From Desulfurellaceae bacterium (GTDB lineage: Bacteria; Desulfobacterota; Binatia; Bin18), in the NCBI GenBank assembly GCA_021296095.1, contig JAGWBB010000003.1, positions 1 through 62,918 on the forward strand: a DNA stretch of 62,918 bases, given 5' to 3'. Below the pieces are notes generated by a model. It searched no databases. It saw only the letters and a program-made list of their open reading frames with translations, and was not told where the DNA came from. How positions within the stretch are numbered: the stretch's first letter is position 1; each line of letters starts with the position of its first letter. Below, one piece after another: positions 13,203 through 62,861 of the stretch. Position numbers and translations under genes: made by a program.

Positions 13203-13222
13203 GCCTTCGGCGACCGGCTCAG
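13199..13222. terminator. Palindrome holding both stop codons between cobC and btuB
   Basis: The 7-bp arms CTGAGCC (13199-13205) and GGCTCAG (13216-13222) flank a 10-nt loop exactly between the convergent cobC and btuB genes, and each arm contains one of the two TGA stops. A hairpin would form on either transcript. There is no T-run on either side, so calling it a bidirectional terminator is inference. Confidence 0.3.
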
Positions 13223-17083: not shown

Positions 17084-17126
17084 ATGCCTTTGACAGCATA
17101 TGATTCTTAGATAATATTAAAGGCAT
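17084..17126 (+). promoter_or_regulatory. Toxin-antitoxin promoter within an 8-bp inverted repeat
   Basis: TTGACA (17090-17095), a 16-nt spacer and TAATAT (17112-17117) lie in an AT-rich patch. The promoter is bracketed by ATGCCTTT (17084-17091) and AAAGGCAT (17119-17126), a perfect inverted repeat whose right arm includes the start codon at 17125. This layout suggests an operator for autorepression. Only 7 nt separate the -10 box from the ATG, so the mRNA may be leaderless. Confidence 0.6.
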
Positions 17127-17493
17127 GGTTTGGGAAGTCGGTTTCGATCCGGCCTTTGACCCGGAATTCGATGCTCTGCCTGCCGCAGTGCAGGACGAAC
17201 TGCTCGCCCAGGCGAAGCTTCTCGAAGTGTTCGGACCGACGCTGGGCCGTCCGCGGGTAGACACGCTGCGCGGATCACACCACGCCAATATGAAGGAGCT
17301 TCGCTTTCAGGTCGCTGACGGCGTGTGGCGGATCGCCTTTGCCTTTGATCCCAGGCGGCGGGCCGTCCTGTTGGTGGCCGGCAACAAGTCGGGTGTCAGC
17401 GAAAGACGTTTTTACCGACAGCTGATCAAGAAGGCGGACGAACGGTTTGACGCGCATCTCGCCCGGCTGAAGGACGAGAGGAGGTCCAGATGA
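17125..17493 (+). CDS. RelE/HigB-like toxin (phage Gp49-like family)
   Basis: 122 residues. The sequence has the features of the phage-derived Gp49-like/HigB toxins, which cleave mRNA at the ribosome: an N-terminal helix pair (DALPAAVQDELLAQAKLLEVFG), the strand region MKELRFQVADGVWRIAFAFD, and LLVAGNKSG near residues 84-92. It precedes its likely antitoxin with an ATGA overlap at 17490-17493, the toxin-first order usual for HigBA. A promoter with an inverted-repeat operator lies directly upstream. The gene stands just inside the monooxygenase tail copy A, so it belongs to the accessory block. Confidence 0.85.
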   Translation: MVWEVGFDPAFDPEFDALPAAVQDELLAQAKLLEVFGPTLGRPRVDTLRGSHHANMKELRFQVADGVWRIAFAFDPRRRAVLLVAGNKSGVSERRFYRQLIKKADERFDAHLARLKDERRSR

Positions 17494-17828
17494 CGACGCT
17501 ACAGGAGAGAATGGATAAGCTGCCCAGAGCGCGGCGAAAAAAAGTGGAGGAACGGGCCAGAGTGCTGATTGCCGAAGAGATGTCGCTCCAAGACCTGCGC
17601 AGGGCGCGGAAACAGACGCAGGTGCGTGTAGCCAAGGAACTCGGGATCAATCAGGAAAACGTGTCGCGCCTCGAAAAGCGGAGCGATCTGTTGATTTCCA
17701 CGCTCCGGGGCTACGTCAGAGCGATGGGCGGCAAGCTGAGTTTGGTGGCGGAATTTCCCGACCGTCCGCCGGTTGTGTTGACCGGCATTGCGGATCTGGA
17801 CAAGGAAGAGCCTTCGACAAAGTCATAG
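17490..17828 (+). CDS. XRE-type antitoxin, HigA-like
   Basis: 112 residues. A Cro/C1-type helix-turn-helix is seen as LRRARKQTQVRVAKELGINQ followed by ENVSRLEKRSDLLISTLRGY (about residues 36-75). The C-terminal part (GGKLSLVAEF) is typical of antitoxins paired with Gp49-like toxins. It overlaps the toxin gene by 4 bp. It should neutralise the toxin and repress the shared promoter. Confidence 0.87.
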   Translation: MTTLQERMDKLPRARRKKVEERARVLIAEEMSLQDLRRARKQTQVRVAKELGINQENVSRLEKRSDLLISTLRGYVRAMGGKLSLVAEFPDRPPVVLTGIADLDKEEPSTKS

Positions 17829-18018
17829 CAATGGACCGCCGTCGTGCTCTCGCTCGCCAGTCTCCTCAAGCGCCTGACAAACTCCCGTCGGTCCGTCTCA
17901 TAGGTCATACTCGCTTGGCCTTTTCTGTGTCATGGATGAGTGGGTCGGATGAGCGAAGCATAATCTGACAAGCGTGGACTGCTTATAGTTTGGACATCCC
18001 AAGGAGGCTTTGAAAATT
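17829..18018. other. Spacer with a REP-like unit before the DUF262 gene
   Basis: 190 bp without a gene. Positions 17941-17970 carry GTGGGTCGGATGAGCGAAGC with continuing ATAATCTGAC, a relative of the repeat at 16791. An AAGGAGG ribosome site for the next gene ends the spacer (18001-18007). No clear promoter is visible. Confidence 0.5.
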
Positions 18019-19692
18019 ATGGAAGCACGGAATCGCTCACTGAACGACTGGTTTGCCCGCATTCGCACTCGCCAGGTGGTCCTTCCTCGATTTCAGCGCT
18101 TCGAGGCATGGACCCATAGAATGGTTGCTGGGCTTCTTGATACGGTTTTACGAGAACTTCCAGCGGGTGCACTGCTCGTACTCGAAGTGGGTGATGAAGA
18201 ACCTTTTGTCTCCAGGGTGATGGTCGGTGCTCCTGAAAACGGTGATAAAATCGTGGAACATCTCCTCGATGGTCAACAGCGTCTGACAGCCCTGTGGCGT
18301 AGCCTCACCGACAACTATCCAGATCGAACGTACTTTGTGGAGATGAATTCCGACGAGCAAGAAGATGAGTCTTCCGGTCCGCTGCGAACAATGTCTCAAG
18401 GTCGTTGGCGCAAAAATGGAAGGCTCTATCCTCTATGGGCTGATGATCCAGTCAGCGTCTGGGACCGTCAGCTCATACCAGCCAGACTTCTGCGTCCTGA
18501 CCACGAGGCTGAAAAAGAGTTTAAGGAGTGGGCGAAATCGGCTGCTCAAGATGATACCGACGAGCTTATTCGGTTGATTTCATTAGGCGCAGACCTGCCC
18601 GCTCGGTTCGCGGGGTTCAATTTGCCGTTCCTGTCCCTCTCCCTCCCACCCACTACTCCAAGGGAAACAGCTCTCGACGTGTTCGTGAAGATGAATACGT
18701 CGGTGCAGCCTCTTAGCACTTACGACATCGTGGTTGCGCAGGTCGAAGCGGCCACCGGATTTTCACTGCACGAACTTGTCTCGGAGCTGCGGAAAGAGGC
18801 GCCGACGCTTGAGATCTTCGCAGAGCCTGCTCAGGTCATCCTGAATGCGGGTGCGCTGCTCCAGGATCGTGAACCCAGCAAAAGCGTTATGCTTAGCAAC
18901 GACTTTGCCGAAGGTTTGATCGATAACTGGGCCAAACTCGTGAGCGGAGCCTAGCGAGCGGCGAGTTTCCTTGATGAAGAACACGTATTCGATTCAACGC
19001 GTATTCCTTCCGATGCGGCGACTCCGTTGCTTGTCGCCTTATGGGCTCACGCCCCCGACGGCTTGGATGGCGAAGGCGAAGCGCGTCTCCTCCTTCGGAA
19101 GTTTCTATGGCGTGCGTTCTTAACTGATCGCTACGAATTGGCCACCAATGGCCGTATCTTCGCCGATTACAGACTGCTGGCTCCACGGCTCAAAGGCCAG
19201 GATGCCGGTGTTCCACTCATCTTCAACGACGAGAGGCATCCACTTCCAACGGCCGAAGACCTGCTGCTGGCTGGTTGGCCGAAGAAAAGAGAGCGTTTGG
19301 CTCGGGCAATTCTACTCATCTCCCTCCGACAGGGAGGACTCGATTTCGCCGACGGTAGTCAAGCAACTCGTGACAGCCTCCGTTCAAGGGAATACCACCA
19401 TATTTTCCCAATAGACCTCTTGGAAGATGCAGGCGAAGAGCAAGGGAAGGTTTACAGAGCGTTGAATTGCGCGCTGGTGACCTGGAAGACCAATCGTAAC
19501 ATCTCTGCTAAGTCCCCGATTGAATATCTCCAGAAGAGGATTGATGCGAGTACGCTCGGCGAGGCAGAGATTCGTAGGCGTCTCGTCAGTCATAGTATCG
19601 ACTATGACGTTCTTGTGGCTGGCAACTATGATGAGTTTCTTGCCGCACGCGCTGAGACGTTGCTTCCAGAAGTTCAGCGCCTCGGGAGCTGA
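18019..19692 (+). pseudogene. DUF262/DUF1524 (GmrSD-like) protein interrupted by an in-frame TAG
   Basis: The ATG at 18019 has AAGGAGG at 11 bp. The N-terminal part is DUF262: ARIRTRQVVLPRFQRFEAWT and the nucleotide-contacting HLLDGQQRLTALW near residues 78-90. The frame meets TAG at 18952-18954 and continues in the same frame to 19692 with a DUF1524 HNH-like part: EYHHIFPIDLL and NRNISAKSPIEYL. One base change (for example GAG to TAG) would restore 557 residues; the reading ...KLVSGA-x-RAASFLDEE... is continuous. The DUF262-DUF1524 architecture is that of type IV restriction enzymes such as GmrSD that attack modified phage DNA. As it stands the nuclease half is probably not made, unless a TTG or downstream start is used. 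Confidence 0.85.
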
Positions 19693-36713: not shown

Positions 36714-37103
36714 ATGATGGAAACCCAGAAGATGGACGACTCGGTCAACGTGTTTGGTGAGCCGCTCGACACCTGTAGTGACAGCCCGCTGACCGGTTTC
36801 TTTCGCGACGGCTGCTGCAACACCAGCGAGCAGGATCGTGGCTCGCACACTGTGTGTGTCGAGGCCAGCCAGGAGTTTCTGGAATTCTCCCGCCAGCGCG
36901 GTAACGATCTCTCGACCCCTCGGCCCGAGTTCGGCTTTCCGGGCGTCAAGCCGGGCGACCGCTGGTGTTTGTGTGCGGCGCGCTGGCTCGAAGCCTACCA
37001 GCGCGACATGGCCCCCCGGGTGTATCTCACCCGCACCCACCAGCGTGCCCTGGAGATTGTTCCCCTGAAACTGCTGCGCGAGTATGCGATTGATCTGAAT
37101 TAG
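36714..37103 (+). CDS. DUF2237 family protein
   Basis: 129 residues from the ATG at 36714, with GGAGG at 8 bp. The DUF2237 pattern is plain: NVFGEPLDTCSDSPLTGFFR, DGCCNTSEQDRGSHTVCVEA, GNDLSTPRPEFGFPGVKPGD, RWCLCAARWLEAYQ and the C-terminal THQRALEIVPLKLLREYAID. The conserved Cys and Glu residues suggest a small catalytic or metal-binding protein, but no function is established. The last 24 codons of this gene occur again, slightly diverged, at 39451-39522, on the far side of an accessory block. Confidence 0.88.
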   Translation: MMETQKMDDSVNVFGEPLDTCSDSPLTGFFRDGCCNTSEQDRGSHTVCVEASQEFLEFSRQRGNDLSTPRPEFGFPGVKPGDRWCLCAARWLEAYQRDMAPRVYLTRTHQRALEIVPLKLLREYAIDLN

Positions 37104-37105
37104 AC
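37034..37105 (+). repeat. Original copy of the 72-bp DUF2237 3'-end repeat
   Basis: This is the authentic 3' end of the DUF2237 gene. It matches 39451-39522 at 66 of 72 positions without gaps. Five of the six differences are third-position synonymous changes and the sixth changes Lys to Glu. Confidence 0.9.
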
Positions 37106-37270: not shown

Positions 37271-38008
37271 ATGCGTGATCAAGATGTAATTAAAGCTTTC
37301 GTCGTTTTTTTACGCGGCATCGGCTTCCCCGACTTGATGGTAGACCGATGGCCTGACGAAGAGAATCGTCGGACTAAAGAGATCGATGCAATCGCTGGCC
37401 CTTTTGCGATTGAGCATACGAGCATCGACAGCATTCCACACCAACATCGGAACGATGATTGGTATCGGCGCGTCGCGGGCGGACTCGAACAGGAGTTCTC
37501 TGACAGCGTGGATTTTCATCTGAGCGTCACACTCGAATACGACGCCATCAAGAAAGGCCAGGATTGGGATAAGCTTCGTGCTGCTCTCAAGAGTTGGGTT
37601 TCCAGTAACGCCTTCGAGCTGCCTTATGGGTGGTATGATAGGATCCTTCCGGTAGATCCTCTACTTTCTCCCCCCTTTCGGCTCTGGGTCCAAAAACGGA
37701 AAGAGGGGCCACGAGGTGTCTCCTTCCCCCGCTTCGCACCGCCAGAAGACAAAACACTGTCAGAGCGAATAAGGAAGATATTGGACCGTAAGAGAGCGAA
37801 ACTGGCGAAATACCAGGTGCCGGGTACTACGACCGTTTTGCTCGTCGAAAACGGTGATATCGCTCTTATGGATGAACCAACAATGCTCAGCGCAATTCGA
37901 GATGCGTATCCAAATGGACTGCCGGACGGGGTGGACAAGCTGTGGTTTGCCGATACGTCTATACCGGAAAATCCGAGGTTTCGTGACTTTACCAATATGG
38001 AGGGCTGA
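37271..38008 (+). CDS. Unrecognised accessory protein, possible PD-(D/E)XK-like nuclease
   Basis: 245 residues; ATG with GAGGAG at 4-5 bp. I do not recognise a named family. Residues about 33-55 read RRTKEIDAIAGPFAIEHTSI, in which an Asp on one strand and a Glu on the next (EHT in place of ExK) resemble the core of PD-(D/E)XK nucleases. The N-terminal helix (DQDVIKAFVVFLRGIGFPDL) and a basic stretch near residues 165-178 (RIRKILDRKRAKLAKY) are also seen. The base composition is less GC-rich than the neighbouring genes. It lies in the block bounded by the two DUF2237 tails and converges on an AAA ATPase gene, so a defence role is possible but unproven. Confidence 0.6.
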   Translation: MRDQDVIKAFVVFLRGIGFPDLMVDRWPDEENRRTKEIDAIAGPFAIEHTSIDSIPHQHRNDDWYRRVAGGLEQEFSDSVDFHLSVTLEYDAIKKGQDWDKLRAALKSWVSSNAFELPYGWYDRILPVDPLLSPPFRLWVQKRKEGPRGVSFPRFAPPEDKTLSERIRKILDRKRAKLAKYQVPGTTTVLLVENGDIALMDEPTMLSAIRDAYPNGLPDGVDKLWFADTSIPENPRFRDFTNMEG

Positions 38009-38066
38009 ACACGCTGCTGGAGTGGCGGGATCCGGGCTCCATCGCTTCTGCCGCATCATGCGGCCT

Positions 38067-38160
38067 GGGCTGCCGCCCGGTGCAAGAGGTGGACGGCGAG
38101 ACCATTTATCGCGAACACTGCGCCACCTGCCATGCCACGGCGACCCGTGCGCCAAAGTTT
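38067..38160 (+). repeat. Fragment of the PQQ/cytochrome c dehydrogenase gene
   Basis: 94 bp match 41098-41191, the segment coding the haem motif CATCH of the quinoprotein gene 3 kb downstream, in the same orientation. The copy lacks one base in the CCCC run and has two substitutions (giving Thr in place of Ala and of Ser). It lies between the unrecognised gene and the AAA ATPase gene and has no start codon of its own. Confidence 0.9.
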
Positions 38161-38168
38161 CTGAAGTC

Positions 38169-39365
38169 CTACCGGGACCATCTCCACTCATCACCGGGCA
38201 TGATACGTAACATAAACTCGTCAAACATCGGAACAGTAAAAGCTGTGTCTCCGTGACTCGGGCTCCACACCATACCTTTATTAATCAGTTGGCTGCGAGT
38301 GGGAGCTAAAGAGGTGACGCGACGGTTCAGGACACCGGCAATGTCTCCTGAACGATGAGGTCCTGCCCCGAGTTGGGCCATCGCTCGAAGATATCTTTTC
38401 TCTGCGGGCGTCAGCCTGTCAAACCTGACCAGGAAGAAGCTTTTATCGAGGTCGGCGATGGCCTGCTTGGAGGCGACTTCAACACTAGAAGCCGTAATGG
38501 GAGAACGCTCGGCGACATCCCATAAGTGCTTTCCCCACTCCTGCAGAAAGTAAGGATAGCATTGAGTCCGAGAAACGACGGCGTCGAGGGCGGAGGGATC
38601 TATCTCCACTCCTTCGTCTATCGCGGGCTTGGCAATCGCAAATTTTGCTTCATCAGGGGAGAGCGCTCCGATGTCAGGAAACTCAAAAAGCCTCTCGGCG
38701 TAAGACTTTGCTTTCCCCATGCGACCTCGTAACTGGGGGAGACCTGCCCCGATCAAGGTCACCGGGAGCCGCCGTTGAGACGTCCGGTGTAGCGCCGTGA
38801 TCAGCGCACCGAGTTCATCCTCCTTCACATACTGGAGTTCATCGACGAAGAGCACCAAACAGCTTCCATCTGCCTTGGCGGCGGCGCCAACGACTTCAAA
38901 TAGGTCCTGCAAGTCAGTCTCCAAGTCTCCGTTGTCCGCCAACCCGGGTTCCGGGTCGAAGTCCAAAACGACCTCGATATCCTGGTACTTCATCTTCAGC
39001 GCCCCGACAAACCCTGCAAGTGCCCTGAGCGCGTGTTGCGCCACATTTTTGACTGCCTCCTTGTTCGAGAGTTTCAGCAAGGCCGAACGCAACTGAGGCG
39101 CTAAAAGGGATACCAGAGAGCGATTTTCAGGCGCTTCTATGCGTGGTGCGTGCATGCGGTTCGCCAATGCGTCTTCACGAATCCGGTCCAACAAGACAGT
39201 CTTTCCTACGCCACGTAGTCCAACCATCAGCATACTTTTGCTTGGACGGCCGATCTTGATCCGCTCCAGTGCAATTCGCGCGGTCTCTCGGACCTCGTCT
39301 CTGCCGACCAGTGCTGGAGGCTGCGTGCCTGCTCCAGGTGCATAGGGGTTTCGAATTGGGTCCAT
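38169..39365 (-). CDS. AAA-type ATP-binding protein (AAA_16/ORC-like)
   Basis: 398 residues. Walker A is GLRGVGKT at residues 49-56, after the usual GRDEVRETARIALERI helix. Walker B is CLVLFVDELQ near residues 168-177, followed by a sensor-type strand RRLPVTLIGAGLPQL. The C-terminal part (FDRLTPAEKRYLRAMAQLGA, SQLINKGMVWSP) looks like a winged-helix module. Proteins of this build occur in mobile and defence loci as stand-alone ATPases. A very AT-rich upstream region (39366-39450) carries TATAAA 8 bp before the ATG, so the transcript may be leaderless. Confidence 0.8.
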   Translation of the reverse strand: MDPIRNPYAPGAGTQPPALVGRDEVRETARIALERIKIGRPSKSMLMVGLRGVGKTVLLDRIREDALANRMHAPRIEAPENRSLVSLLAPQLRSALLKLSNKEAVKNVAQHALRALAGFVGALKMKYQDIEVVLDFDPEPGLADNGDLETDLQDLFEVVGAAAKADGSCLVLFVDELQYVKEDELGALITALHRTSQRRLPVTLIGAGLPQLRGRMGKAKSYAERLFEFPDIGALSPDEAKFAIAKPAIDEGVEIDPSALDAVVSRTQCYPYFLQEWGKHLWDVAERSPITASSVEVASKQAIADLDKSFFLVRFDRLTPAEKRYLRAMAQLGAGPHRSGDIAGVLNRRVTSLAPTRSQLINKGMVWSPSHGDTAFTVPMFDEFMLRIMPGDEWRWSR

Positions 39366-39450: not shown

Positions 39451-39522
39451 CACCCACCAACGCGCCCTGGAGATTGTTCCCCTGGAACTGCTGCGCGAGT
39501 ACGCAATCGATCTGAATTAGAC
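39451..39522 (+). repeat. Diverged copy of the DUF2237 gene 3' end
   Basis: 72 bp, 66 identical to 37034-37105, still reading THQRALEIVPLELLREYAID and stop. The mostly synonymous differences suggest that this copy evolved as part of a working gene in a relative, and not simply by decay. It begins exactly where the AT-rich region ends. Confidence 0.9.
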
Positions 39523-39591: not shown

Positions 39592-40914
39592 TCAGCCTGG
39601 CACGGCCATGGGCTGGACGCGGCCATAGGTCAGCGACCGCCACAGCCACTCCAGCGGGCCGAACCGGTAGCGCCCCAGCCACCAGTTGCTGAACCAGATC
39701 AGGACGATCCACTCCGCCAGCACGATGGAGTACAGCTGGTGGCGGGCGAGTTCGTTCCACAGTCCGAGCCCGAAATCGTGGAAAATCACCAGGCCGAAGA
39801 CGCTTTGCAGGATGTAGTTCGTGAGTGCCATACGCCCGACGGCCGCCAGAACTTGACGCGCTCTGGCAAACCAGTCGTACTGCCAGGCGATCATTGCCAC
39901 AGAGACGAATCCGAGGGCCATCGACACACGCCCAAGGTCGTTGGTGAACACTGATGCGCCCGACACCCATTGGGGCGCGTAGCCGCTCCCGATCTTCATG
40001 GCCAGCTCGAATCCGTTGACCGTCAGACCACAGACGAAGCCCAGGATCGCCACCAGCACATAGCAACGCAGGCTGCGCCGGCCCTGGAAGAAGCCGGTCT
40101 TGTAGAGCGCCATGCCGAGCAGCATGCACGCGGCGGCGTCCCAGATGAAGAACAGCGGCAGGGCAAGGGTGTACATCTCGCCGGCCTCCTCGGCGTTGGC
40201 CACAAAGGATTGGCGGTAAGACCCCTCGAATTTCAGGGCCTCCCGGGCTCGTATGCTCTCCGAGGGATGGACCACGGCTTCCAGATCGACCCAGGCGTCG
40301 AACATGGCCTGATCCTCGGCGGAGACGGCCTGACCGGCGGCGATGCGCGTCTGTACGGCTTTGGCTTGCACCGGACCCCAAGACAGGACCAGGAAGATCG
40401 CGGCGTAGACAATGGCCAGGTAGGCGAAGATGCAGCCTGCGGCGATACCGAGGTTCCTCGGTCGCCAGTTGCGGCACAGATACAGCACCATGCCGGCCAG
40501 GGCATAGGAGACCAGGATGTCGCCTGTCCACAGCAGCACGAAGGTATCGACGAGTCCGAGGCCGAGCAGCAAGAACTGGCGGCGGTAGTAGATTCCCACT
40601 CCCTCAGAGCGAGCTTCGCGGCTGGCCGCCAGCGCAATCCCCACCCCGAACAGCATCGAGAACACGGCTCGCATGACGCCCTCAGCCAGCAAGTCGACGA
40701 CGAAGAAGATGCCGAAATCGGCGCCGCTGAGCGCACCGTCTACGGATGGATCGAAGTAGGCTCGGAACGGCAGCCCGAAGGCCAGAATGTTCATGAGCAG
40801 AATGCCGAGGACCGCGAAGCCTCGGATGGTGTCAATGGCTTGGATGCGGTCAGAGGGGAGGGTCGGGGCGGAGTGTGGCAGGGTCCGGTCCAAATTGTCT
40901 TGTGTGGGAGGCAA
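39592..40914 (-). CDS. DUF418 family membrane protein
   Basis: 440 residues if the TTG at 40914 is used; other TTG starts nearby are possible, and the open frame to 41136 would overlap the PQQ dehydrogenase start. DUF418 proteins begin with an amphipathic segment and RIQAIDTIRGFAVLGILLMN, present here about 22 residues from the start. About ten hydrophobic helices follow, with LLLGLGLVDTFVLLWTGDIL, FFIWDAAACMLLGMALYKTG, and the C-terminal ALTNYILQSVFGLVIFHDFG and LARHQLYSIVLAEWIVLIWF, all typical. These proteins resemble acyltransferase-3 membrane enzymes; the role is unknown. Confidence 0.85.
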   Translation of the reverse strand: MPPTQDNLDRTLPHSAPTLPSDRIQAIDTIRGFAVLGILLMNILAFGLPFRAYFDPSVDGALSGADFGIFFVVDLLAEGVMRAVFSMLFGVGIALAASREARSEGVGIYYRRQFLLLGLGLVDTFVLLWTGDILVSYALAGMVLYLCRNWRPRNLGIAAGCIFAYLAIVYAAIFLVLSWGPVQAKAVQTRIAAGQAVSAEDQAMFDAWVDLEAVVHPSESIRAREALKFEGSYRQSFVANAEEAGEMYTLALPLFFIWDAAACMLLGMALYKTGFFQGRRSLRCYVLVAILGFVCGLTVNGFELAMKIGSGYAPQWVSGASVFTNDLGRVSMALGFVSVAMIAWQYDWFARARQVLAAVGRMALTNYILQSVFGLVIFHDFGLGLWNELARHQLYSIVLAEWIVLIWFSNWWLGRYRFGPLEWLWRSLTYGRVQPMAVPG

Positions 40915-41008
40915 AGATATAACGGTCGGGCGCTTGACGGGCAAGGCATAGGACCGTTGCGCTGATTTGCCGATGTATGACAAGAAGAGGCAAGAAGGAG
41001 GGTGCCAC

Positions 41009-42910
41009 GTGAGACACACACTATGGACTGAATACAGACTGCGCCACGCGCTCGGCGTGTGCGTCGTCGGGCTGCTTTTGAGTGCGGCCACGGCCCGGGC
41101 TGCCGCCCCGGTGCAAGAGGTGGACGGCGAGGCCATTTATCGCGAACACTGCGCCACCTGCCATGCCACGGCGAGCCGTGCGCCAAAGTTTGAGGTGATG
41201 CGCAGGCTGCCGGCCGCGTTTGTGCTGCGTTCGATGGAACTGGGCAAGATGCGCTTCCAGGGCATGATGCGGACCGGCGCCGAGCGGCGGGCGGTGTCCG
41301 AGTATATCACCGGCAAGACGCTCCCGGCCGTGACCGAGAAAGACCCGACGGTGGCCGGCTTTTGCAGCGATGCGCCGGGCGCGTTCCCGGCCGCGTACGC
41401 CTCGGCCGCCTGGAACGGCTGGGGCGTGGATGAGACCAACAGCCGCTTCCAGCCGGCCGCGGCCGCCGGCCTGAGCGCCGAACAGGTGGCCAAACTCAAG
41501 GTCAAATGGGTGTTCGGCCTGCCCATGGACTACCAGACCTCGCAGCCGACGGTTGTTGGCGGGCGGGTCTTTGTCGGCAGCCTGGGCGGCCACGTGTACT
41601 CGATTGACGCCAAGACCGGCTGCCTGTACTGGGCCAAAAAACCCCGGGCCGGCGTCCGGGCCTCGGTCGTCATCGGCCGGCTGCCCGACACCGATCCGCC
41701 CCGCTACGCCGCGTATTTTGGCGATATTGAGGCCAATATGTATGCGGTCGATGCCCGGACCGGCGAAGAGCTGTGGCAGACCAGGGTGGACGATCATCGC
41801 CTGGCCCGGATTACCGGAACGCCGACCCTGCACGACAACCGGCTATACGTACCGGTCACGGCCCTGGAAGAGGTGGCCGGCTCGGACCCCAGTTACGAGT
41901 GCTGCACCTTTCGCGGCCCGATTGTGGCCCTGGATGCCGGCAGCGGGCAACAGATCTGGAAAGCCTACACGATCCCGGACGAACCCAAGCCGGTGCGCAA
42001 AAACGCCAAGGGGGTCCAGCTGTGGGGGCCGTCGGGCGCCTCGGTGTGGTCGGCCCCGACCCTGGATCTGAAAAAGAACGTCATGTATGTGGCGACCGGG
42101 GATAATTATTCCGATCCGCCCTCGCTGACCAGCGATGCCCTGGTCGCCTTTGATTTGGCAACCGGCGAGATGCTGTGGTCCCAGCAGTTCACGCCCAACG
42201 ACGCCTGGAATATCGGCTGTGAGTCGGACGATCAGACCAACTGTCCCGAGGCCCGGGGACCGGATCTGGATTTTGGCTCGTCGTCGATTCTGCGTGAGCT
42301 GCCGGACGGCAAGCGGGTGCTGGTGGCCGGCCAGAAGTCGGGCGTGCTGCACGCCGTCGACCCGGACAATAACGGCGCCATCCTGTGGCAGGCGCGGGTC
42401 GGCAAGGGCGGCCTGGCCGGCGGGATTCAGTGGGGCCCGGCGGCGGATGCCAGCACGGTGTATGTGGCCCTGTCGGATATCGGTCTGAGAACGATCGAGG
42501 ATTCGCAGGCCGGCTGGACGACCGAACTCGACCCCAGCGTCGGGGGCGGGATGTTCGCCTACGATCTGGCCAGCGGAAACCGGCTGTGGCACGTACCGCC
42601 GCCGGGCTGTGGCGACCGCACGCAGTGCAGCCCGGCCCAATCCGCAGCCGTGTCGGTGATTCCCGGGGTCGTGTTTTCCGGCTCGGTCGATTCCCATCTG
42701 CGGGCCTATTCAACCACCGACGGCACGCTGCTGTGGGACTATAACGCCGACCAGGAGTACGACAGTACCAACGGCGTGCCGACTCGGGGTGGGGCGTTTG
42801 ACGGTCCCGGGCCGACAATTGTTGACGGCGTGGTGTACGTCAACTCGGGCTATGGGTTCTGGGGCGCCCGCTCGGGCAACGCCTTGATCGCGTTTGAGCC
42901 CGGCGAATAA
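41009..42910 (+). CDS. Periplasmic quinoprotein with N-terminal cytochrome c, polyvinyl-alcohol-dehydrogenase-like
   Basis: 633 residues from the GTG at 41009, which has AAGGAGG at 7 bp. A signal peptide (ALGVCVVGLLLSAATARA) is followed by a cytochrome c domain with YREHCATCHATASRAPKF and an axial Met candidate in the next 60 residues. From about residue 145 there is a PQQ-type eight-bladed propeller (FVGSLGGHVYSIDAKTGCLY, ANMYAVDARTGEELWQTRV, GDNYSDPPSLTSDALVAFDL). The architecture resembles PVA dehydrogenase and related haem-quinoprotein alcohol dehydrogenases that pass electrons to the periplasmic chain. A 94-bp piece of its haem-coding region is copied at 38067. bpt follows after 3 bp. 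Confidence 0.85.
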   Translation: MRHTLWTEYRLRHALGVCVVGLLLSAATARAAAPVQEVDGEAIYREHCATCHATASRAPKFEVMRRLPAAFVLRSMELGKMRFQGMMRTGAERRAVSEYITGKTLPAVTEKDPTVAGFCSDAPGAFPAAYASAAWNGWGVDETNSRFQPAAAAGLSAEQVAKLKVKWVFGLPMDYQTSQPTVVGGRVFVGSLGGHVYSIDAKTGCLYWAKKPRAGVRASVVIGRLPDTDPPRYAAYFGDIEANMYAVDARTGEELWQTRVDDHRLARITGTPTLHDNRLYVPVTALEEVAGSDPSYECCTFRGPIVALDAGSGQQIWKAYTIPDEPKPVRKNAKGVQLWGPSGASVWSAPTLDLKKNVMYVATGDNYSDPPSLTSDALVAFDLATGEMLWSQQFTPNDAWNIGCESDDQTNCPEARGPDLDFGSSSILRELPDGKRVLVAGQKSGVLHAVDPDNNGAILWQARVGKGGLAGGIQWGPAADASTVYVALSDIGLRTIEDSQAGWTTELDPSVGGGMFAYDLASGNRLWHVPPPGCGDRTQCSPAQSAAVSVIPGVVFSGSVDSHLRAYSTTDGTLLWDYNADQEYDSTNGVPTRGGAFDGPGPTIVDGVVYVNSGYGFWGARSGNALIAFEPGE

Positions 42911-53400: not shown

Positions 53401-54622
53401 TGCCGGCGGAGTGATGGTTGTCACCGAACTGGCCGAGGCGCTGCTGCTGGCCCGTGGTTCCTCTCGGGACGAACCGCTGCGCACCCAGCTTGCGCTGGCA
53501 GTGGCACGCTCGGGTATCGAAGCTGAGCAGACAAAAAAAGCGCCACGGTTTGCCGTGCGACGCGACCCCGAGCGCGTGCTGGTGGCAGTCAGCCAAGAGT
53601 TGGCCGCGTATGCCAGCCGTCTCGGCAATCAGGCAGATTCACTTGCTAAGGAGGACCCGCTCGTTTCTCCGGCTTGGGTCTTGGAGCGACTCCGGAAGAT
53701 TCAGCCTCCGACCGGGGCTCCGACCTTGTCTGATTCTCGCCTCGTGCAGCTGGCGGCGGCGGCTTCGCGGCACGCAGCGGTATCCAGCCGTCAGGAGTTA
53801 TACCCGCGCGGAATGGATGCCGCGCGAGCGCTCAAGCTGTCGCAAGGCGCCTTGTATGTCGGCAAGCTTAGCGTGCAGGAGCTGCATGCCCGGGTGCAGA
53901 GCCGGTATCCAGAGGCGGCAAAGCTGCTTGACCGCCCAGAGCTGGACGCCGTGCTGCGCGATGCAGGATTACATTTTGAGTGGAAGGCGACAGAGAAGAA
54001 GTATGTCAGTCGCTCGTTTGAGGCAGTTTCTGTTTCTGGAACGAGCGACTCGTTTTCCGGGTCGGTGGTCGAGGGAGGAGAGGTGACTCCCGAACAGGCC
54101 GATGCGCGGCGGTTTGAGGAACGCCTGAGGCGAGGGGCGCAGGAAGGATCGTTTTTGGCCTTAGTGGTCAATCCGAAGCGTTATGAATCGGCGGGGCGAG
54201 CGTTGTCAGAACGGTTTCCGGTTGAGTTGGTGGATTTTGAGGGGATGTTTATTGAGGCGCTCCGACACAAGGCGGACGAGGCGAAGGTGGATTGGGAGCT
54301 GGTGCTACAGGCTGATGCAAGACCGTACCAGGGAGATTGGGACTCTTTAACGAGGTTGGTCGAGTATCGAGCAATGCCGCTGGTTGAGGAGCGGTTAATG
54401 CGGGCGGAGAAAACGGTCCTGATGATGTATGCCGGCTTATTGGCGCGCTACGATCAGATGGCAGTGCTGGAACGGCTGCGGGAGTCGGTCGGGAGACCCG
54501 GGGGCATACCGGGGCTGTGGTTGCTGTTGGCGGGAGATCAGCAGGCAATGCTGGAGGGGAGGGCGGTTCCGCTGTTGAGTCCGGGCCAACGGGTGCGGGT
54601 GCCGGACCTGTGGCTGCGATAG
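50450..54622 (+). CDS. pglW: BREX type 2 kinase PglW with NERD nuclease domain
   Basis: 1,390 residues from the ATG at 50450; the open frame extends back to 49829 through the SDR gene and is spurious there. Domains in order: NERD nuclease-like domain (about 13-130) with the D...ExK core in NEVDLLVFSPQGFFLIEIKS; a BREX-type linker (QALEQAGIRPSQRQRRVGDY); a first kinase-like domain with catalytic loop HRGLSP at 343, lacking the Asp; a second kinase domain with HRDIKPDN from 644 and DFS at 669-671; a helix-hairpin-helix-like region (about 811-866, LRKLQRLRGVGNKTRRDIA); and a long C-terminal region. In the Streptomyces Pgl system PglW is an active protein kinase required for phage resistance. Confidence 0.9.
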   Translation: MDEAKNWTTIAESRFPWEREALEFVRQRFPSHEPYRAWSNFEFIADDGSINEVDLLVFSPQGFFLIEIKSRPGRLSGDAGTWIWETDNRRLTTDNPLIAANTKAKKLAALLQRQKVSRKKGRLPYLETLVFCSAPELQCGLQGTARYHVCLRDRDKEAGRPDRPGIMAAIRGRKCPGLDRQPRGTHDRPTAKTVSQALEQAGIRPSQRQRRVGDYILDEIVADGPGYQDWRASHAQIPETQRWVRLYQVRAEASEEDRQKIERAAKREFQLLEMLQHPGILRTHGFTPHELGPAIIFEYDASSVRLDHYLAAPREALSLDLALDLARQIAEAVRFAHEKKVIHRGLSPQSIFVIAPNSAQPRIKILNWQVGSRLGSSSADVSREITPTSHIDRFVEDARMAYLAPEALTDEATIGEYMDVFSLGAIAYHLFSGVAPAASSLELHEKLRETKGLQISSVLNGASEELQILIQYSTHPEVMERIDSAADFLAYLEAVEDDLTTPADDAIDDPNRAQKGDRLAGNFTVLKRLGQRASSVALLVERDSQEFVLKLASDPEHNTRLRDEAEVLQKLRHPHLVEYAEVLELGDRVAILLRPVLADRETRRVETLGERLRKEGRLSIDLLQRFGEDLLGVVNFLEEQGISHRDIKPDNIAVGNVGSGSRLHLVLFDFSLSRAPADNIRAGTTSYLDPLLPLRKPPRWDLHAERYAAAMTLHELATGTLPQWGDGKTDPSLLDCEITLDAELFDSSLRDGLTAFFQAAFRRNPAERFDNAEDMLRTWRQAFEGVEQSQLVADLDDEETLRQRLAGVAPDTRISELALGTLASNVLDRENILTVEDLLSVPLRKLQRLRGVGNKTRRDIATLIKILREQPDSPSIADSLDSLADEPVPPTAPIEYGLLSVDLLARRITSGGTRDDETSRRSVRALLGLDSQLGDAWPSQSDVGRHLKMSRAQVGQRLGKFFIRWSKEPALTKLRSDMVDILTHAGGVMVVTELAEALLLARGSSRDEPLRTQLALAVARSGIEAEQTKKAPRFAVRRDPERVLVAVSQELAAYASRLGNQADSLAKEDPLVSPAWVLERLRKIQPPTGAPTLSDSRLVQLAAAASRHAAVSSRQELYPRGMDAARALKLSQGALYVGKLSVQELHARVQSRYPEAAKLLDRPELDAVLRDAGLHFEWKATEKKYVSRSFEAVSVSGTSDSFSGSVVEGGEVTPEQADARRFEERLRRGAQEGSFLALVVNPKRYESAGRALSERFPVELVDFEGMFIEALRHKADEAKVDWELVLQADARPYQGDWDSLTRLVEYRAMPLVEERLMRAEKTVLMMYAGLLARYDQMAVLERLRESVGRPGGIPGLWLLLAGDQQAMLEGRAVPLLSPGQRVRVPDLWLR

Positions 54623-54633
54623 GAGTTCTATTC

Positions 54634-57600
54634 ATGTCTCTCCTCACAGACCTCCAAGCCCGGCTTCGTACCCTTGAAGCCGACCTCCTGGAACGCAGCG
54701 ACTCCGACGCCATCCCGGAAGTCCGCCAGACCCTTTACTCAGAATACCGAAAAGCCCAAGAGGCCGAACGCACCGCCCAGATCTACGAGACGTGGCGCGA
54801 AGACTACATCACCCAGGTCGCTGCCGCCTGGGTTCTCAGCTGCGTCTTCGCCCGTTTCCTGGAAGACAACCGGCTCATCGATCCCATCCCACCCACCATC
54901 TCCGGCCCGGGAGAGCGCCTCGTCCGCGCCCGAGACGAACACGAGCTGTACTTTCGTACCCATCCAACCGAGACAGACCGGGAGTACCTGCTCCACACCT
55001 TCCGCAGCCTGTCTGCCTTGCCGGGCGCGAGTGACATCTTCGGTCAGCACAACCCGGTCCACGAACTTCCCAACTGGTTGAGTGGCGACGCGGCGGGACA
55101 GCTGCTGAGATTCTTTCAGCGCATTGACGCCGAGACGGGCGCTTTAGTCCACGACTTCACCGACCCGGACTGGGCCACCCGCTTCTTGGGCGACCTGTAT
55201 CAAGACCTGTCCGAAGCCGCCCGCAAGAAGTACGCCCTTTTGCAAACCCCGAAGTTTGTCGAAGAGTTCATTCTCGACCGGACCTTAGAGCCGGCTCTGG
55301 AGGAATTTGGGCTGCAAGACTTCCGTATGATTGACCCGGCCTGCGGCAGTGGTCATTTTCTGCTGGGCAGTTTCGGCCGTTTGCTCGACCGCTGGCAGCG
55401 CCAGGAGCCGGGCACGAACGTGCGGGTATTGGCACAGCGGGCCTTGGATAGCGTGTGTGGCGTAGACGTGAACCCGTATGCCGCCGCAATCGCCCGCTTT
55501 CGCTTACTGCTGGCGGCGATGAAAGAGTCCGGGATTAAGCGGATGGCTGACGCCGGCGTTTCGGATTCATGTGGCGTGTGGGGATTCGTTGATTCATGGT
55601 GTACCGGGTGGCGATCAGCTGGGGATGGGCTGGCACGCACTCGATCATGTGTATCAGAACGAAGATCGGGAAGAGCTGTATCGGATTCTGAAGCCGGGGC
55701 ATTATCATGCGGTGGTGGCGAACCCGCCATATATCACGGTGAAGGATAGGGCGTTGAACAATGCGTATCGGGAACGCCACTCTTCCTGCCACCGCCAGTA
55801 TTCCCTCTCCGTTCCATTTATGCAGAGAATATTCAGCCTTGCCGTCAGTGGTGGATTCACTGGTCAAATTACGGCTAATTCGTTTATGAAGCGGGAGTTT
55901 GGTAAGAAGCTGATCGAAAAGTTTTTGCCTACGATTGATCTGACTCACGTTATTGATACATCGGGAGCATATATCCCTGGGCATGGGACCCCAACGATTA
56001 TTCTCTTTGGACGTAACAGACGTTCTAGGGGAGCAACGGTTCGCACCGCGATGGGGATTAAGGGAGAACCGACTACGCCGACCGATCCCTCACAAGGATT
56101 GGTCTGGACAGCTATCCTAAATCAAATTCATCATCCTAACTCGGAAAGCGATTACATCAGTGTCCGAGATGCAGACCTCCTATCCTTCACTCACCATCCC
56201 TGGACTCTCAGCGGAGGTGGTGCGACAGACTTAAAAGATTTTCTTGATCAGGAATCGAATCAGACGCTTTCCGAATGTATCGGGATAATTGGGTTTGTCT
56301 GCATGACCCGGGCCGATGATGTCTATTTTGCGAAAGAGGGCGACTTTCTCAGACGCGGAATCGAGAAAAAAAATACGGTATTTAATGTGGAAGGTGATCG
56401 CGTCCGCGACTGGGCCATCACAGACCCCAATGCAACTCTTTTCCCTTACAACTCTGAATTGCAACCAATAGTCGAGTTCTCAGAGGCGCCTGTTATACGT
56501 TTCCTTTGGCCTCATCGTACTCATTTGTGGCTCCGACGAGAGCCCAATGGTAACCATCGAGAGATAGGGCTCACGTGGTATGAGTGGAGCCGATTCCAGC
56601 GCGAACGCTTTCGCACCCCTCTCTCCATCGCCTTTGCCTTCGTTTCGACCCATAATCACTTCGTCCTTGATCGTGGCGGGAAGGTCTTCAACCGCTCAGC
56701 GCCGATCATCAAGTTGCCCAGCGATGCCACCGAGGATGATCATCTTGCTCTGCTCGGTCTGCTCAATAGCTCTACGGCGTGCTTTTGGATGAAGCAGGTG
56801 CTCCACGATAAAGGAAACGGAGGAATAGGTGGGGGAATCGCAAATGAAGAATGGGAACGCTTTTTCGAATATACCTCCGGGGGCTTAGCCAAGTTTCCAG
56901 TACCCAAACGGAAACCAGAAGAACTGCCTAATTTTCTCAACTCCTTGACAGAGGAGTATAAACAGAGCCGACCAGATTCCATAACGAGAGGTAGCACGGC
57001 TTCCATCCTAGCCTTAGCGGTTGATGATGCTCCCTTCAGGTCTATCTTACATCGAATGATTGCTCTCCAAGAAGAACTCGACTGGCAATGCTACCGCCTG
57101 TACCAGCTTCTGGACACCGATCTCACCTACGACAAGGAACCGCCGCCTATCCAACTCGGCCAGCGCGCATTCGAGATCGTCATGGCCCGCAAGATGGCAG
57201 CGGGCGAACTGGAGACGAGTTGGTTTGAGCGGCACGGCTCAACACCGATCACCGAGATTCCTGCCGAGTGGCCGGACGACTATAAACGCCTTGTTGAGCG
57301 TCGAATCGAGCTGATTCAGACCGACCGCAACATTGGCCTGATCGAACAACCCGAATACAAACGCCGCTGGAACACCGAAGCGTGGGAATCGCAACTGGAA
57401 CGGGCGCTCCGCAACTGGCTCCTCGACCGCCTTGAAAGCAACTTTGACTTTGACGGACGCATGAATGATGAAGGCAAGGCAACTGCCAAGTTCGATGACA
57501 CTCTGGTCTCACTGAACCAGCTCGCCGATGCGGCCCGGCAAGACGCGGATTTTATGAGAGTGGCGGAGCTGTACCGCAACGATCCGGCTTTTGACGTGCT

Positions 57601-58243
57601 GAAGCTCGTCGGCGACTTGGTGGAGGCCGAGAGCGTGCCGCTGCTGCCAGTGCTACGCTACAAGGCCGGCGGGCGACGCAAACGGGCCGAGTGGGAACGG
57701 ACGTGGGAGCTACAGAGAGAGGAAGATAGGCTCGCGTCAAAGCGGGAAGAGACGAAAGAAGACAGACCTCTTGGCGACTCGGCGGCTACGCCTGATATCC
57801 CCGTTCCACCCAGATACGCCGGAAAGGATTTCGCCACTACTACCTACTGGCGCCTGCGCGGCAAACTCGATGTGCCCAAAGAACGCTGGGTCAGCTTTCC
57901 CCATTGCGAAGGTGCTGACGGGACACTGATGATCGCCTGGGCTGGCTACGATCACCTCCAGCTCGCCCTCGCTATCAGCGCCCACTACGTCAATGTCCAA
58001 GACCGTCTCGGTGGCCGCGATGACCCCCGCCTCATCCCCCTGCTCGGCTGTTTGATCGAACTCCTGCCCTGGCTCAAACAGTGGCACAACGACGTAAGCC
58101 CCGAATTTGGCACGCCGATGGGTACCTACTTCGATAACTTCGTCCAAGATGAAGCCCGCCAGATGGGTAAAACTCTGGACGAAATCAAAGCCTGGCAAGC
58201 ACCGAAGAAGACTACTCGCCGCCGTAAGAAGGTAACGGCGTAG
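54634..58243 (+). pseudogene. pglX: BREX type 2 adenine methyltransferase PglX, frameshifted
   Basis: The ATG at 54634 lies 11 bp after pglW with TAGGAG upstream. The first frame carries the SAM motif DPACGSGHFLLG from residue 234 and reads to KRMADAG near 55555. The protein then continues in the next frame as FRIHVACGDSLIHGVPGGD, with the catalytic VVANPPYITVKD (Asn codon at 55721), to 58243. The whole would be about 1,200 residues, the usual PglX size. Around 55550-55570 either one base is extra or two are missing. The two methyltransferase motifs lie on opposite sides of the break, so neither fragment alone can methylate DNA. No long homopolymer is present at the site. Confidence 0.87.
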
Positions 58244-58254
58244 CCATTCAGACT

Positions 58255-58842
58255 ATGTCGGATTTCTCCCCAAACGTTGTCATTGTCGCCGGACCGAACG
58301 GTAGTGGTAAATCAACCGCTGCTCCAAGCCTGCTACGCGATTACCTGGGTCTGACCGAATTTGTCAACGCCGATGTCATCGCACGGGGTTTGTCAGGTTT
58401 TCAGGCTGAAGCGGTCGCCATACGAGCCGGTCGTATCATGCAGGCTCGCTTGCGAGAACTGGCATCGCAGCGGAGAGACTTTGCCTTTGAAACAACGCTG
58501 GCTTCGCGTAGCTTTGCCTCTTGGTTGCGGGAGCTGCGTGATTCAGGTTATCGCGCGCATCTGCTTTTCCTGTGGCTCTCGTCACCTGAACTGGCCATCT
58601 CGCGGGTAGCCGCTCGGGTTCAACAGGGCGGCCACCACGTGCAGGAAGAAATAGTCAGAAGACGCTATCAGCGCGGCCTGCAAAATTTTTTCAAGCTCTA
58701 CCGGCCTATTGTGGACTCGTGGGTGTTGTTCGACAATGGATCAGAACAAGGACGCCAGCAGATTGCCTCATATATCGGCGGTGAGGAACTACTCATTTCC
58801 AACGTAAGACTCTGGGACACTATCCGAGGACAATACGCATGA
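58255..58842 (+). CDS. Zeta-toxin-like P-loop kinase
   Basis: 195 residues. The Walker A motif is VIVAGPNGSGKSTAAPSLL near residues 8-26, followed by EFVNADVIARGLSGFQAEAV, the ADF/NADxIA motif of zeta toxins, then FAFETTLASRSFASWL and FLWLSSPELAISRVAARVQQ with GGHHVQEEIVRRRY. Zeta toxins phosphorylate UDP-N-acetylglucosamine and block wall synthesis, though many chromosomal relatives are untested. It lies 11 bp after pglX on the same strand and overlaps the next small gene by ATGA. Confidence 0.85.
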   Translation: MSDFSPNVVIVAGPNGSGKSTAAPSLLRDYLGLTEFVNADVIARGLSGFQAEAVAIRAGRIMQARLRELASQRRDFAFETTLASRSFASWLRELRDSGYRAHLLFLWLSSPELAISRVAARVQQGGHHVQEEIVRRRYQRGLQNFFKLYRPIVDSWVLFDNGSEQGRQQIASYIGGEELLISNVRLWDTIRGQYA

Positions 58843-59036
58843 TCCGAAAAGACCAAAATCAAAACGACGTAATTACCGAACGCTTTCGAGATATTGCCAA
58901 GCTCGAAGCCGTCCTGATCGAAGCGGGTCGTCGAGCCATACAGGAGCACGCCCGAGCAGGCAGAAAGGTGCCGTTCTGGAAAGATGGGCGGGTGGTATGG
59001 AAGAGGCCGGAAATCGACCCCTTGGAGTCTGAGTGA
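58839..59036 (+). CDS. Small partner of the zeta-like kinase, possible antitoxin
   Basis: 65 residues, starting with an ATGA overlap into the zeta-like gene. It has a helical, charged N-terminus (NDVITERFRDIAKLEAVLIE) and ends with the motif VPFWKDGRVVWKRPEIDP. Small proteins with a ...VWRDGKVV... ending are common next to chromosomal zeta-like kinases, which supports a functional pair. Direct evidence that it is an antitoxin is lacking. Confidence 0.65.
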   Translation: MIRKDQNQNDVITERFRDIAKLEAVLIEAGRRAIQEHARAGRKVPFWKDGRVVWKRPEIDPLESE

Positions 59037-59064
59037 AGGGAAGGGGATGAGATGCCTTTGTCTG

Positions 59065-59364
59065 CTAAGCCGACGACCCCATCTCGGCGAACACCCGCAC
59101 CTGTGACAAATCCGCTCTTTGCTCAGCCTGCCACAAGTCGTAGCGCTGCTGCATCGTGAGCCAGGTTTGCCGAGACGTGCCAAACGCCTTCTCCAAACGT
59201 AGCGCCATGTCTGGTGTGATGGCCGTATGGCCGTTAATGATGTTTGACAGAGATTGACGGGTCACACACAAGCCTTTTGCCGCTTCCGTCACTGTCAAGC
59301 CCAAAGGGCCAAGGTATAGGGTTTTGAGCACTGTGCCCGGATGTTCAGGATCATGCATCGGCAT
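59065..59364 (-). CDS. higA: HigA-type antitoxin
   Basis: 99 residues. The HigA start (PEHPGTVLKTLYLGPLGLTV), helix-turn-helix (TEAAKGLCVTRQSLSNIING) and the PDMALRLEKAFGTSRQTWLT block are typical. It follows higB after 12 bp on the minus strand, against the direction of the BREX genes around it. Confidence 0.93.
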   Translation of the reverse strand: MPMHDPEHPGTVLKTLYLGPLGLTVTEAAKGLCVTRQSLSNIINGHTAITPDMALRLEKAFGTSRQTWLTMQQRYDLWQAEQRADLSQVRVFAEMGSSA

Positions 59365-59376
59365 AAGAAAGGCTCC

Positions 59377-59655
59377 CTAATGATAATCTATATAGTCCAC
59401 ATCAAAGGCATCGCCAGCCACGAACCGGAAGATAACACGCCAATTCCCGCTGACCCGCACGGCATAGAAGCCTTTACGGTTTCCTCGGAGAGGGTGAAAG
59501 TCTGAGCCAGGATAGTTCAAATCCTCTGCTCTGACAGCCGCGTCAAGCAAAGTGAGAATTGATCGCAAACGAGACACATGCTCTGGGTTCAAACGTGAAG
59601 CATCTTTCTGCTTATAGAGCCGCCGTAATCCCCGGTGGCGTATGTTCCGAATCAT
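59377..59655 (-). CDS. higB: HigB-type toxin
   Basis: 92 residues. Family pattern: IRNIRHRGLRRLYKQKDASR, LRSILTLLDAAVRAEDL, FHPLRGNRKGFYAVRVSGNW and RVIFRFVAGDAFDVDYIDYH. HigB is a ribosome-dependent mRNA endonuclease. It is read from its own promoter and palindromic operator at 59667-59696, between the zeta-like pair and pglY. The module is reversed with respect to the BREX operon. Confidence 0.93.
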   Translation of the reverse strand: MIRNIRHRGLRRLYKQKDASRLNPEHVSRLRSILTLLDAAVRAEDLNYPGSDFHPLRGNRKGFYAVRVSGNWRVIFRFVAGDAFDVDYIDYH

Positions 59656-59666
59656 GGAGAAGACCC

Positions 59667-59696
59667 AGAGTAAAGCGTCAATTGACGATTGTCAAT
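59667..59696 (-). promoter_or_regulatory. Promoter and overlapping palindromic operators of higBA
   Basis: Minus strand: TTGACA (59695-59690), 17-nt spacer, TACTCT (59672-59667). Two palindromes overlap the promoter: CGTCAATTGACG (59676-59687, perfect) and ATTGAC-GATT-GTCAAT (59681-59696). They are good candidates for HigA binding and autorepression. About 70 bp to the right, pglY starts on the other strand, so bound HigA could also affect it. Confidence 0.6.
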
Positions 59697-59765
59697 GCGT
59701 TCGGTATTTTCGCCTGCTGAACGTGGCATACAGCGGACAAGAGTCCAACAAAGGCAGCATCCCCC

Positions 59766-62700: not shown

Positions 62701-62861
62701 CAGTCCAGCGGGCGGAGAGCATTTTTGGGGAGGGTAGCTCCCTGTTGCGCAATGCGAGCAGTGTGGCGAATCTGTCTGAGAGTGTCCACGTGAGTGCTGA
62801 AAAAGCTCGAACGGCCTGTCAACATTATTCTCAACAGCTACTAGGGCGTGTCATCAGTTAG
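59766..62861 (+). CDS. pglY: BREX type 2 P-loop ATPase PglY
   Basis: 1,031 residues. The N-terminus (LIKDLITIPDRVQQGDFVLR, LGEYVVTPELADCFDNALSF) and the Walker A HGSFGSGKSHFM (K76) are those of BrxC/PglY ATPases. Walker B is GLILFLDELILWL (D266, E267), followed by IISFVARQRDLSELIGDAVP. The C-terminal half is mixed alpha/beta without recognised motifs. It is somewhat shorter than the Streptomyces protein. In BREX-2 it normally stands next to pglZ, which would be expected beyond the right edge. It is divergent from the higBA module, with a weak AAAGG ribosome site. Confidence 0.85.
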   Translation: MTLIKDLITIPDRVQQGDFVLRLAEGVNRAEETLGEYVVTPELADCFDNALSFIRSALQDNTSKASYLHGSFGSGKSHFMAVLHLILQGNTTARSIPELAPAIRKHNEWIGGKKFLLVPYHMIGARDMEAGILGGYADFVGRTHPEAPIPGVYLAQGLFRDAENLRQKMGDGPFFEKLNEGTGSAGGWGDLAAGWDRTRFENASVAQPGSEERSLLIGALVETLFSSYTSQAASQQEALVPLDTGLSVLSQHAASLGYDGLILFLDELILWLASHATDLKFVHQEGQKLAKLVEAQTSDRPVPIISFVARQRDLSELIGDAVPGAERLNFSDALGHWEGRFHRITLEDRNLPAIAEKRILKCKTAAARQELGASFEQTKKIREAVMNTLLTSEGDRAMFRKVYPFSPALVQTLIAVSSVLQRERTALKVMMQLLVEQRETLQLGDIIPVGDLFDIIANSDEAFSQEMAIHFDNAKRLYHQKLRPLLEKEHGQVETLDQLAEDDPKRIAFRNDDRLIKTLLLAALVPEVESLRALNAERLAALNHGTIKSPIPGREGQMVLGKCRGWAARVGELRVGEETNPTITVQLSGVDTETIIEQAQIEDTQGNRIRLVREMIFEQLRIEGEDEFEHSRTFLWRNTKRSCAVLFRNIRDLPDTSLENSAARWKLIIDFPFDETGRGARDDTSKIQSFLESHPDGAKTVCWVPAFFSAEAQKDLGTLVILEHVLTGERFTQYATQLSPQDRQTAKSLLENQRSVLRQRVHNHLDAAYGLESHSVGSLDQTQELELSERFVSLQPGLSLQPPVAADLSGAMDSLLDQALAYQFPDAPQFGVEVKANSLKKVYEQVEKATRAADGRLPIEKPVRPLLRAIANPLQLGEMGADATHFVLGQHWKTHFTKKAAEAGGGLSVSQLRSWIDEPQPKGLPREVANILVLLFADQTNRSFFLDGAPYKKPTLTDLPDQLELREQALPNERDWKTAVQRAESIFGEGSSLLRNASSVANLSESVHVSAEKARTACQHYSQQLLGRVIS

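Follow-up and report, generated by a model that had tools for sequence, protein, structure and literature searches.

A 62,918-nucleotide stretch of DNA from a Desulfurellaceae bacterium (GenBank assembly GCA_021296095.1, contig JAGWBB010000003.1, positions 1 to 62,918; hereafter, the window) carries a gene for a 245-amino acid protein (ORF245; 37271-38008, forward strand) with no family match in Pfam, NCBIfam, PADLOC, or PHROG. It faces a gene for an AAA ATPase (38169-39365, reverse strand), which raises the question of whether ORF245 is a nuclease and whether the two genes act together. An earlier note, made from the sequence alone, had seen in ORF245 a core recalling PD-(D/E)XK nucleases with a changed third residue, and had allowed that the two genes may be independent or may together form a small defence system. 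The reading we favour as a whole, with confidence that is about evenly balanced, is that ORF245 belongs to a rare family and is carried as a stand-alone cargo gene, encoding an accessory protein for which we propose a variant PD-(D/E)XK-like N-terminal half, and that the ATPase gene is separate.

ORF245 represents a rare and discrete protein family. We searched 395 genomes of the phylum by protein and by profile, with further profile searches by class. The protein search recovered relatives in 4 genomes, the window's own included, and the profile gave 4 strong matches (E below 1e-76), all remaining ones lying above 0.01. When the cut-off was relaxed to E up to 0.5, 20 genomes were matched, 16 of them by weak matches alone (E above 0.01); these were set aside as noise, the best of them (L035, E 0.016) lying opposite, on the other strand, to a gene recognised by eye as rpoN. 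By class, the profile matched 3 of the 29 genomes in the class of genome G318 and 2 of the 242 in that of G357. Plasmid, phage, and viral collections yielded no relative with the queries used, and the scan of genome contigs was made with exact peptide patterns taken from the window protein alone. Altogether, seven loci were found: the window, L002, L019 (genome G318), L018 (G403), L016 (G357), L017 (G438), and a broken copy in G236 (L020/L021), which was left out of the alignments. The closest relative, 91% identical, is encoded on contig WTHE01000265.1 of a Binatota metagenome-assembled genome, and the genome of the window is itself related to Candidatus Binatota.

Among the six intact proteins, 44 alignment columns are invariant, including D3, D39, E48, T50, and Q58. 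The core EIDAIAGPFAIEHTSID (37379-37429, forward strand; residues 37-53) contains the stretches IDAIAG (residues 38-43) and AIEHT (46-50), both invariant in all six, so that the conserved core which had been claimed at 37271 is borne out. A loose pattern of this motif, written after the motif had been seen, matched once in the 79,958 residues that make up the six-frame open stretches of the window. The ratios of nonsynonymous to synonymous substitution (dN/dS), 0.28 between the window and L002 and 0.22 between L018 and L019, indicate that selection holds ORF245, which is under purifying selection.

What, then, does this core represent? We propose that the N-terminal ~100 residues of ORF245 probably form a PD-(D/E)XK-type core in which threonine stands in place of the catalytic lysine: a helix with an acidic residue (3 or 5), a strand, a strand carrying D39 (proposed motif II), a strand carrying E48-x-T50 (proposed motif III), and a helix with the invariant Q58. 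Support for the nuclease reading, drawn from profile comparisons, is weak but specific. Profiles were built from genome matches to three PD-(D/E)XK families, UPF0102, Mrr, and PDDEXK_10 (PF07788, to which DUF1626 is linked). The first 105 columns of the ORF245 profile scored 19.6 against UPF0102; in three sets of column shuffles, this value was reached by 1 of 100, 0 of 40, and 4 of 400. The IDxIA part of the core aligns with UPF0102 motif II, and the register, with D39 on the motif II aspartate, was kept in all six leave-one-out repeats; the acidic residue of motif II is accordingly present, being invariant in 6 of 6 proteins and lying in a predicted strand. When ten clusters of neighbouring genes were run as targets, UPF0102 stood out with a z-score of 4.9, compared with 0.6 for a cluster taken from its sequence to be Mrr, 0.3 for a PDDEXK_10-bearing cluster, and -0.6 to 0.4 for seven clusters taken as unrelated controls.

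Several results weigh against a nuclease fold. The alignment stops short of E48, and this residue is not matched to motif III. The score of the N-terminal part against Mrr was equalled by only 1 of 100 and 1 of 40 shuffles, and this match was lost in most leave-one-out repeats; against PDDEXK_10, the N-terminal part did no better than shuffles (68 of 100). AlphaFold2 models were too poor to use, with mean confidence (pLDDT) of 37.7 for one and 43.2 (residues 1-120) for the other of two near-identical sequences. No lysine or arginine is invariant in the helix that follows E48 in the six relatives, although Q58 is invariant there. Finally, the full-length ORF245 profile reached a probability of just 0.1-1.1% against the three families. 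In control comparisons, UPF0102 and Mrr found each other at 89-93% and UPF0102 and PDDEXK_10 at 56-67%, whereas Mrr and PDDEXK_10, both accepted members, reached 0.4-3.9%, so the full-length negative is not decisive. A search of solved structures with the ORF245 profile gave no match; a hit to P4 Psu (E 0.058) disappeared with a larger profile and was rejected.

These points give a substantial minority chance to the view that ORF245 does not have a nuclease fold and that IDAIAG and AIEHT mark some other conserved core, such as that of a binding protein or another enzyme; the lack of any family or structure match, the failure of the full-length profile, the missing lysine, and the loss of the strand at residues 45-50 in the second AlphaFold2 model would all fit. 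Against it stands the N-terminal resemblance to UPF0102, which is stable and keeps the acidic strand motif in register. In our view, a PD-(D/E)XK-like N-terminal core is probable but unproven, and because motif III, when examined, reads E48-x-T50 in 6 of 6 proteins instead of (D/E)xK, with threonine for the catalytic lysine, we do not count ORF245 as a PD-(D/E)XK member. The nuclease proposal of the earlier note survives in part: the changed third residue holds throughout the family and the N-terminus resembles UPF0102, while the profile searches and structure prediction it had suggested for 37271-38008 returned no full-length match and unusable models.

If the core is of this type, it might no longer cut. 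A PD-(D/E)XK-related family that has lost catalysis and only binds nucleic acid is possible but on the unlikely side; T50 replaces lysine in all six proteins and no clear migrated lysine is found in the next helix, but D39, E48, and Q58 never vary, which would fit retained metal binding, and a lysine-to-threonine change is described for DUF1626, a predicted nuclease family (PMC1913061). On the reading we favour, ORF245 alone would most likely bind, and perhaps cut, nucleic acid.

The surroundings of ORF245 relatives point to how the gene may travel. A toxin-antitoxin pair lies directly beside ORF245 in 5 of the 7 loci and is of three types: a DUF433-DUF5615 pair upstream of ORF245 in L018, L019, and L020; downstream in L017, a YoeB-like toxin preceded by a small open reading frame that has no match; and a DUF4258 gene with a YgiT-type gene, downstream in L002. 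To be set against this association are that five of seven is a raw count, that neither the window copy nor L016 has an adjacent pair, and that the pairing with DUF433-DUF5615 arose once for all three of its loci; with these counted as one, adjacency holds in 3 of 4 lineages. No known defence system stands beside the ORF245 relatives, whose neighbours are toxin-antitoxin pairs or housekeeping genes. Near the relative in L017, two proteins matching the PADLOC model PD_DExK (10068-10667 and 12772-13392) are encoded amid two RelE/ParE-type toxin genes and genes that resemble, by eye, those for CODH/ACS.

In one bacterial family, the pair and ORF245 form a compact cassette. A block of 1.2-1.55 kb, with 78-82% DNA identity, recurs in L018, L019, and L020 at three unrelated sites, the flanks being unrelated; in L018 and L019, ORF245 begins 12-13 bp after DUF5615 on the same strand, ahead of a terminator-like hairpin, and the L018 block ends at genes for tRNA-Asn and tRNA-Gln. 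In another genus (genome G336, L155), the same tRNA-Asn/tRNA-Gln pair is preceded by L018-type toxin-antitoxin genes, followed by a third gene for a 246-amino acid protein with no family match, a likely membrane segment at its start (by eye), and no relationship to ORF245. Comparison of L018 4562-6265 with L155 2325-4038 gives 76% identity over L018 4562-5288 and none across the third gene; identity resumes, at 91%, in 6064-6265, where the terminator-like hairpin and the two tRNA genes lie. Hence, at a tRNA-Asn site shared by two genera, the third gene has been swapped, whereas the toxin-antitoxin pair and the terminator/tRNA flank have stayed. Between L018 and L019, silent sites differ by 34% in the third gene, compared with 61% in DUF5615 and 55% in DUF433, as expected if the third gene moved between toxin-antitoxin cassettes, although different codon usage could contribute.

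At the end of the L019 cassette (3255-3290), a few bases match the 3'-terminal part of the tRNA-Asn gene that adjoins the L018 copy and may be left over from an earlier site linked to a tRNA. A clean empty site for the L019 cassette could not be identified, as gene order at that place differs in G396. The copy in G236 has decayed. It is interrupted by stop codons and is split across two contigs (L020 1-110 and L021 1-110), whose ends share a 19-bp repeat along with a 9-bp target duplication, the traces expected of an insertion sequence; an ORF245-family gene is therefore dispensable.

The tight spacing and shared strand of ORF245 and DUF5615 in L018 and L019, ahead of a hairpin, could also mean that toxin-antitoxin operons include ORF245 as a third member (a regulator, chaperone, or extra toxin) and that it is not independent cargo. 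We consider this unlikely, since ORF245 occurs with three toxin-antitoxin types, either upstream or downstream of them, and with none at two of the seven loci, rather than in the obligate linkage to one partner of a type II toxin-antitoxin component, and since an unrelated protein replaces it at one site. The DUF5615 genes themselves tell against it. The 29 genomes in the class of G318 hold 17 copies of DUF5615, of which one lies in each of the three ORF245-bearing genomes and there adjoins ORF245. Of the 16 loci viewed (the 17th, cut by a contig end, was left out), DUF5615 is followed by an ORF245-family gene in 3 and by another accessory gene in 1 (G336), and in the other 12 there is no clear accessory third gene, that is, either no same-strand gene follows or those that do appear by eye to be housekeeping or unclear. 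On our preferred reading, ORF245 would spread as a small chromosomal insert, in most cases carrying or adjoining a toxin-antitoxin pair that may help to keep the insert in place, and in one bacterial family it would occupy a third place, open to exchange, after a DUF433-DUF5615 (VapBC-type) operon. The gene would most likely benefit its host by protecting against foreign DNA or phage. PADLOC models of known anti-phage systems gave no family at E up to 1 for ORF245 and none at E up to 0.1 for three of its relatives.

The window copy also bears the marks of an insert. ORF245 and the ATPase gene lie convergently between a DUF2237 gene (36714-37103, forward strand; PF09996, E 2e-53) and a DUF418 gene (39592-41136, reverse strand, start codon uncertain; PF04235, E 7.1e-41). 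Their G+C contents at third codon positions, 0.54 and 0.60, respectively, are foreign to the five neighbour genes measured (0.78-0.84), and the DNA is bounded by scars. One, between ORF245 and the ATPase gene, is a forward-strand copy of ~100 bp (38061-38160) of the 5' part of a PQQ-dehydrogenase gene, 96% identical to 41091-41191; the other, also on the forward strand (39451-39522), copies the 3' end of the DUF2237 gene and is 92% identical to 37034-37105 and 94% to L002 723-792. The AT-richer, bounded DNA described in the earlier note is thereby confirmed. In L002, the order is DUF2237, ORF245, a DUF4258 gene, a YgiT/MqsA-type gene, the ATPase gene, and DUF418, so the window lacks the toxin-antitoxin-like pair of its sister locus and has the PQQ-dehydrogenase scrap there instead. 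No empty site is available for comparison, as the single congener with the locus is also occupied.

Is the ATPase, then, a partner or a neighbour? The protein (398 amino acids) is an AAA_16 ATPase (E 2.6e-17), as had been recognised, and the solo gene is widespread. It occurs in 5 of the 395 genomes and ORF245 in 4, both together only in the genome of the window. The two adjoin in 2 of the 7 ORF245 loci (the window and L002), both of one genus, and no ATPase gene was seen near the other five (0/5 within the stretches read); outside this genus, the genes are unlinked. Relatives of the ATPase, up to 69% identical over the full length, were found in 116 plasmid records, and in five of these that were viewed, the neighbours were unrelated to each other and included no ORF245 relative. 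Synonymous divergence (dS) between the window and L002 is 0.33 for the ATPase gene, 0.14 for ORF245, and 0.16-0.17 for the flanks. That ORF245 and the ATPase form one two-gene defence system, in which the ATPase senses or loads and ORF245 cuts, is highly improbable and was rejected on linkage: adjacency in two species of one genus and the foreign composition of both genes speak for it, but the genes lie on opposite strands with their 3' ends facing, a toxin-antitoxin pair separates them in L002, they share 1 of 395 genomes, and ORF245, unlike the ATPase, had no match in the plasmid collection. No conserved ATPase-nuclease gene pair is seen. The best reading is that the two are independent arrivals, as one of the two options in the earlier note had it, and the ATPase is probably not the partner of ORF245 but a separate gene that would travel independently.

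An ATPase relative on a Vibrio plasmid (L008) is surrounded by many small genes in a layout resembling an integron cassette array, and one locus in the phylum (L024) places the gene between genes that resemble, by eye, those for type I restriction-modification M and S subunits. Elsewhere in the window, the right end (54553-62861) holds BREX-like genes: PglX in two overlapping frames (54553-55749 and 55571-58243), a zeta-toxin-like kinase (58255-58842), and BrxC/PglY (59766-62861). The frame break in PglX could be genuine or could stem from a sequencing error. At 17125-18954, a Gp49-type toxin gene is followed by a small gene and a GmrSD_N/DUF262 gene.

Defence genes are usually found through co-location with others of their kind, and a single cargo gene tied to toxin-antitoxin pairs among housekeeping genes escapes such surveys. 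The tRNA site at which the third gene was swapped between two genera offers a concrete place in which to seek further unknown cargo, third behind this toxin-antitoxin pair, and the ExT variant, if it cuts, would be informative about the working of a PD-(D/E)XK site that lacks its lysine. A bolder proposal, which we put forward tentatively and regard as rather doubtful, is that ORF245 founds a new PD-(D/E)XK-like family of single-gene immunity proteins with a D...ExT site, and that it points to a minimal slot for gene exchange: next to tRNA-Asn, a DUF433-DUF5615 toxin-antitoxin operon, lacking any integrase of its own, in which recombination replaces the third gene.

Compared with known systems, the ATPase of the window resembles the solo AAA_16 ATPases of plasmids, in a collection that yielded no ORF245 relative. 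The genes upstream of ORF245 in L018, L019, and L020 pair DUF433 with a PIN-like protein (DUF5615, PIN_10), as do the PIN-COG2442 (DUF433) VapBC-type loci, e.g., Synechocystis vapBC10, which the available parts of their descriptions present as two-gene loci, with no swappable third gene (PMC3834315, PMC2701414). In the literature searched, by title and opening lines, no description of a third-gene or cargo arrangement beside toxin-antitoxin pairs and no mention of DUF5615 were found. DUF1626 shares with ORF245 the change from lysine, which in that family is often threonine, in motif III, but carries positive residues in the next helix (PMC1913061), where ORF245 has none that is invariant, and the PDDEXK_10 profile is no closer to ORF245 than shuffles are. 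The nearest likeness is to UPF0102/YraN (PF02021), whose N-terminal helix, glycine turn, and E-I-D-x-I-A strand align with ORF245 in one register; UPF0102, however, retains ExK in motif III and occurs almost everywhere (58 of 59 genomes), whereas ORF245 has ExT, is rare, and possesses an extra C-terminal half.
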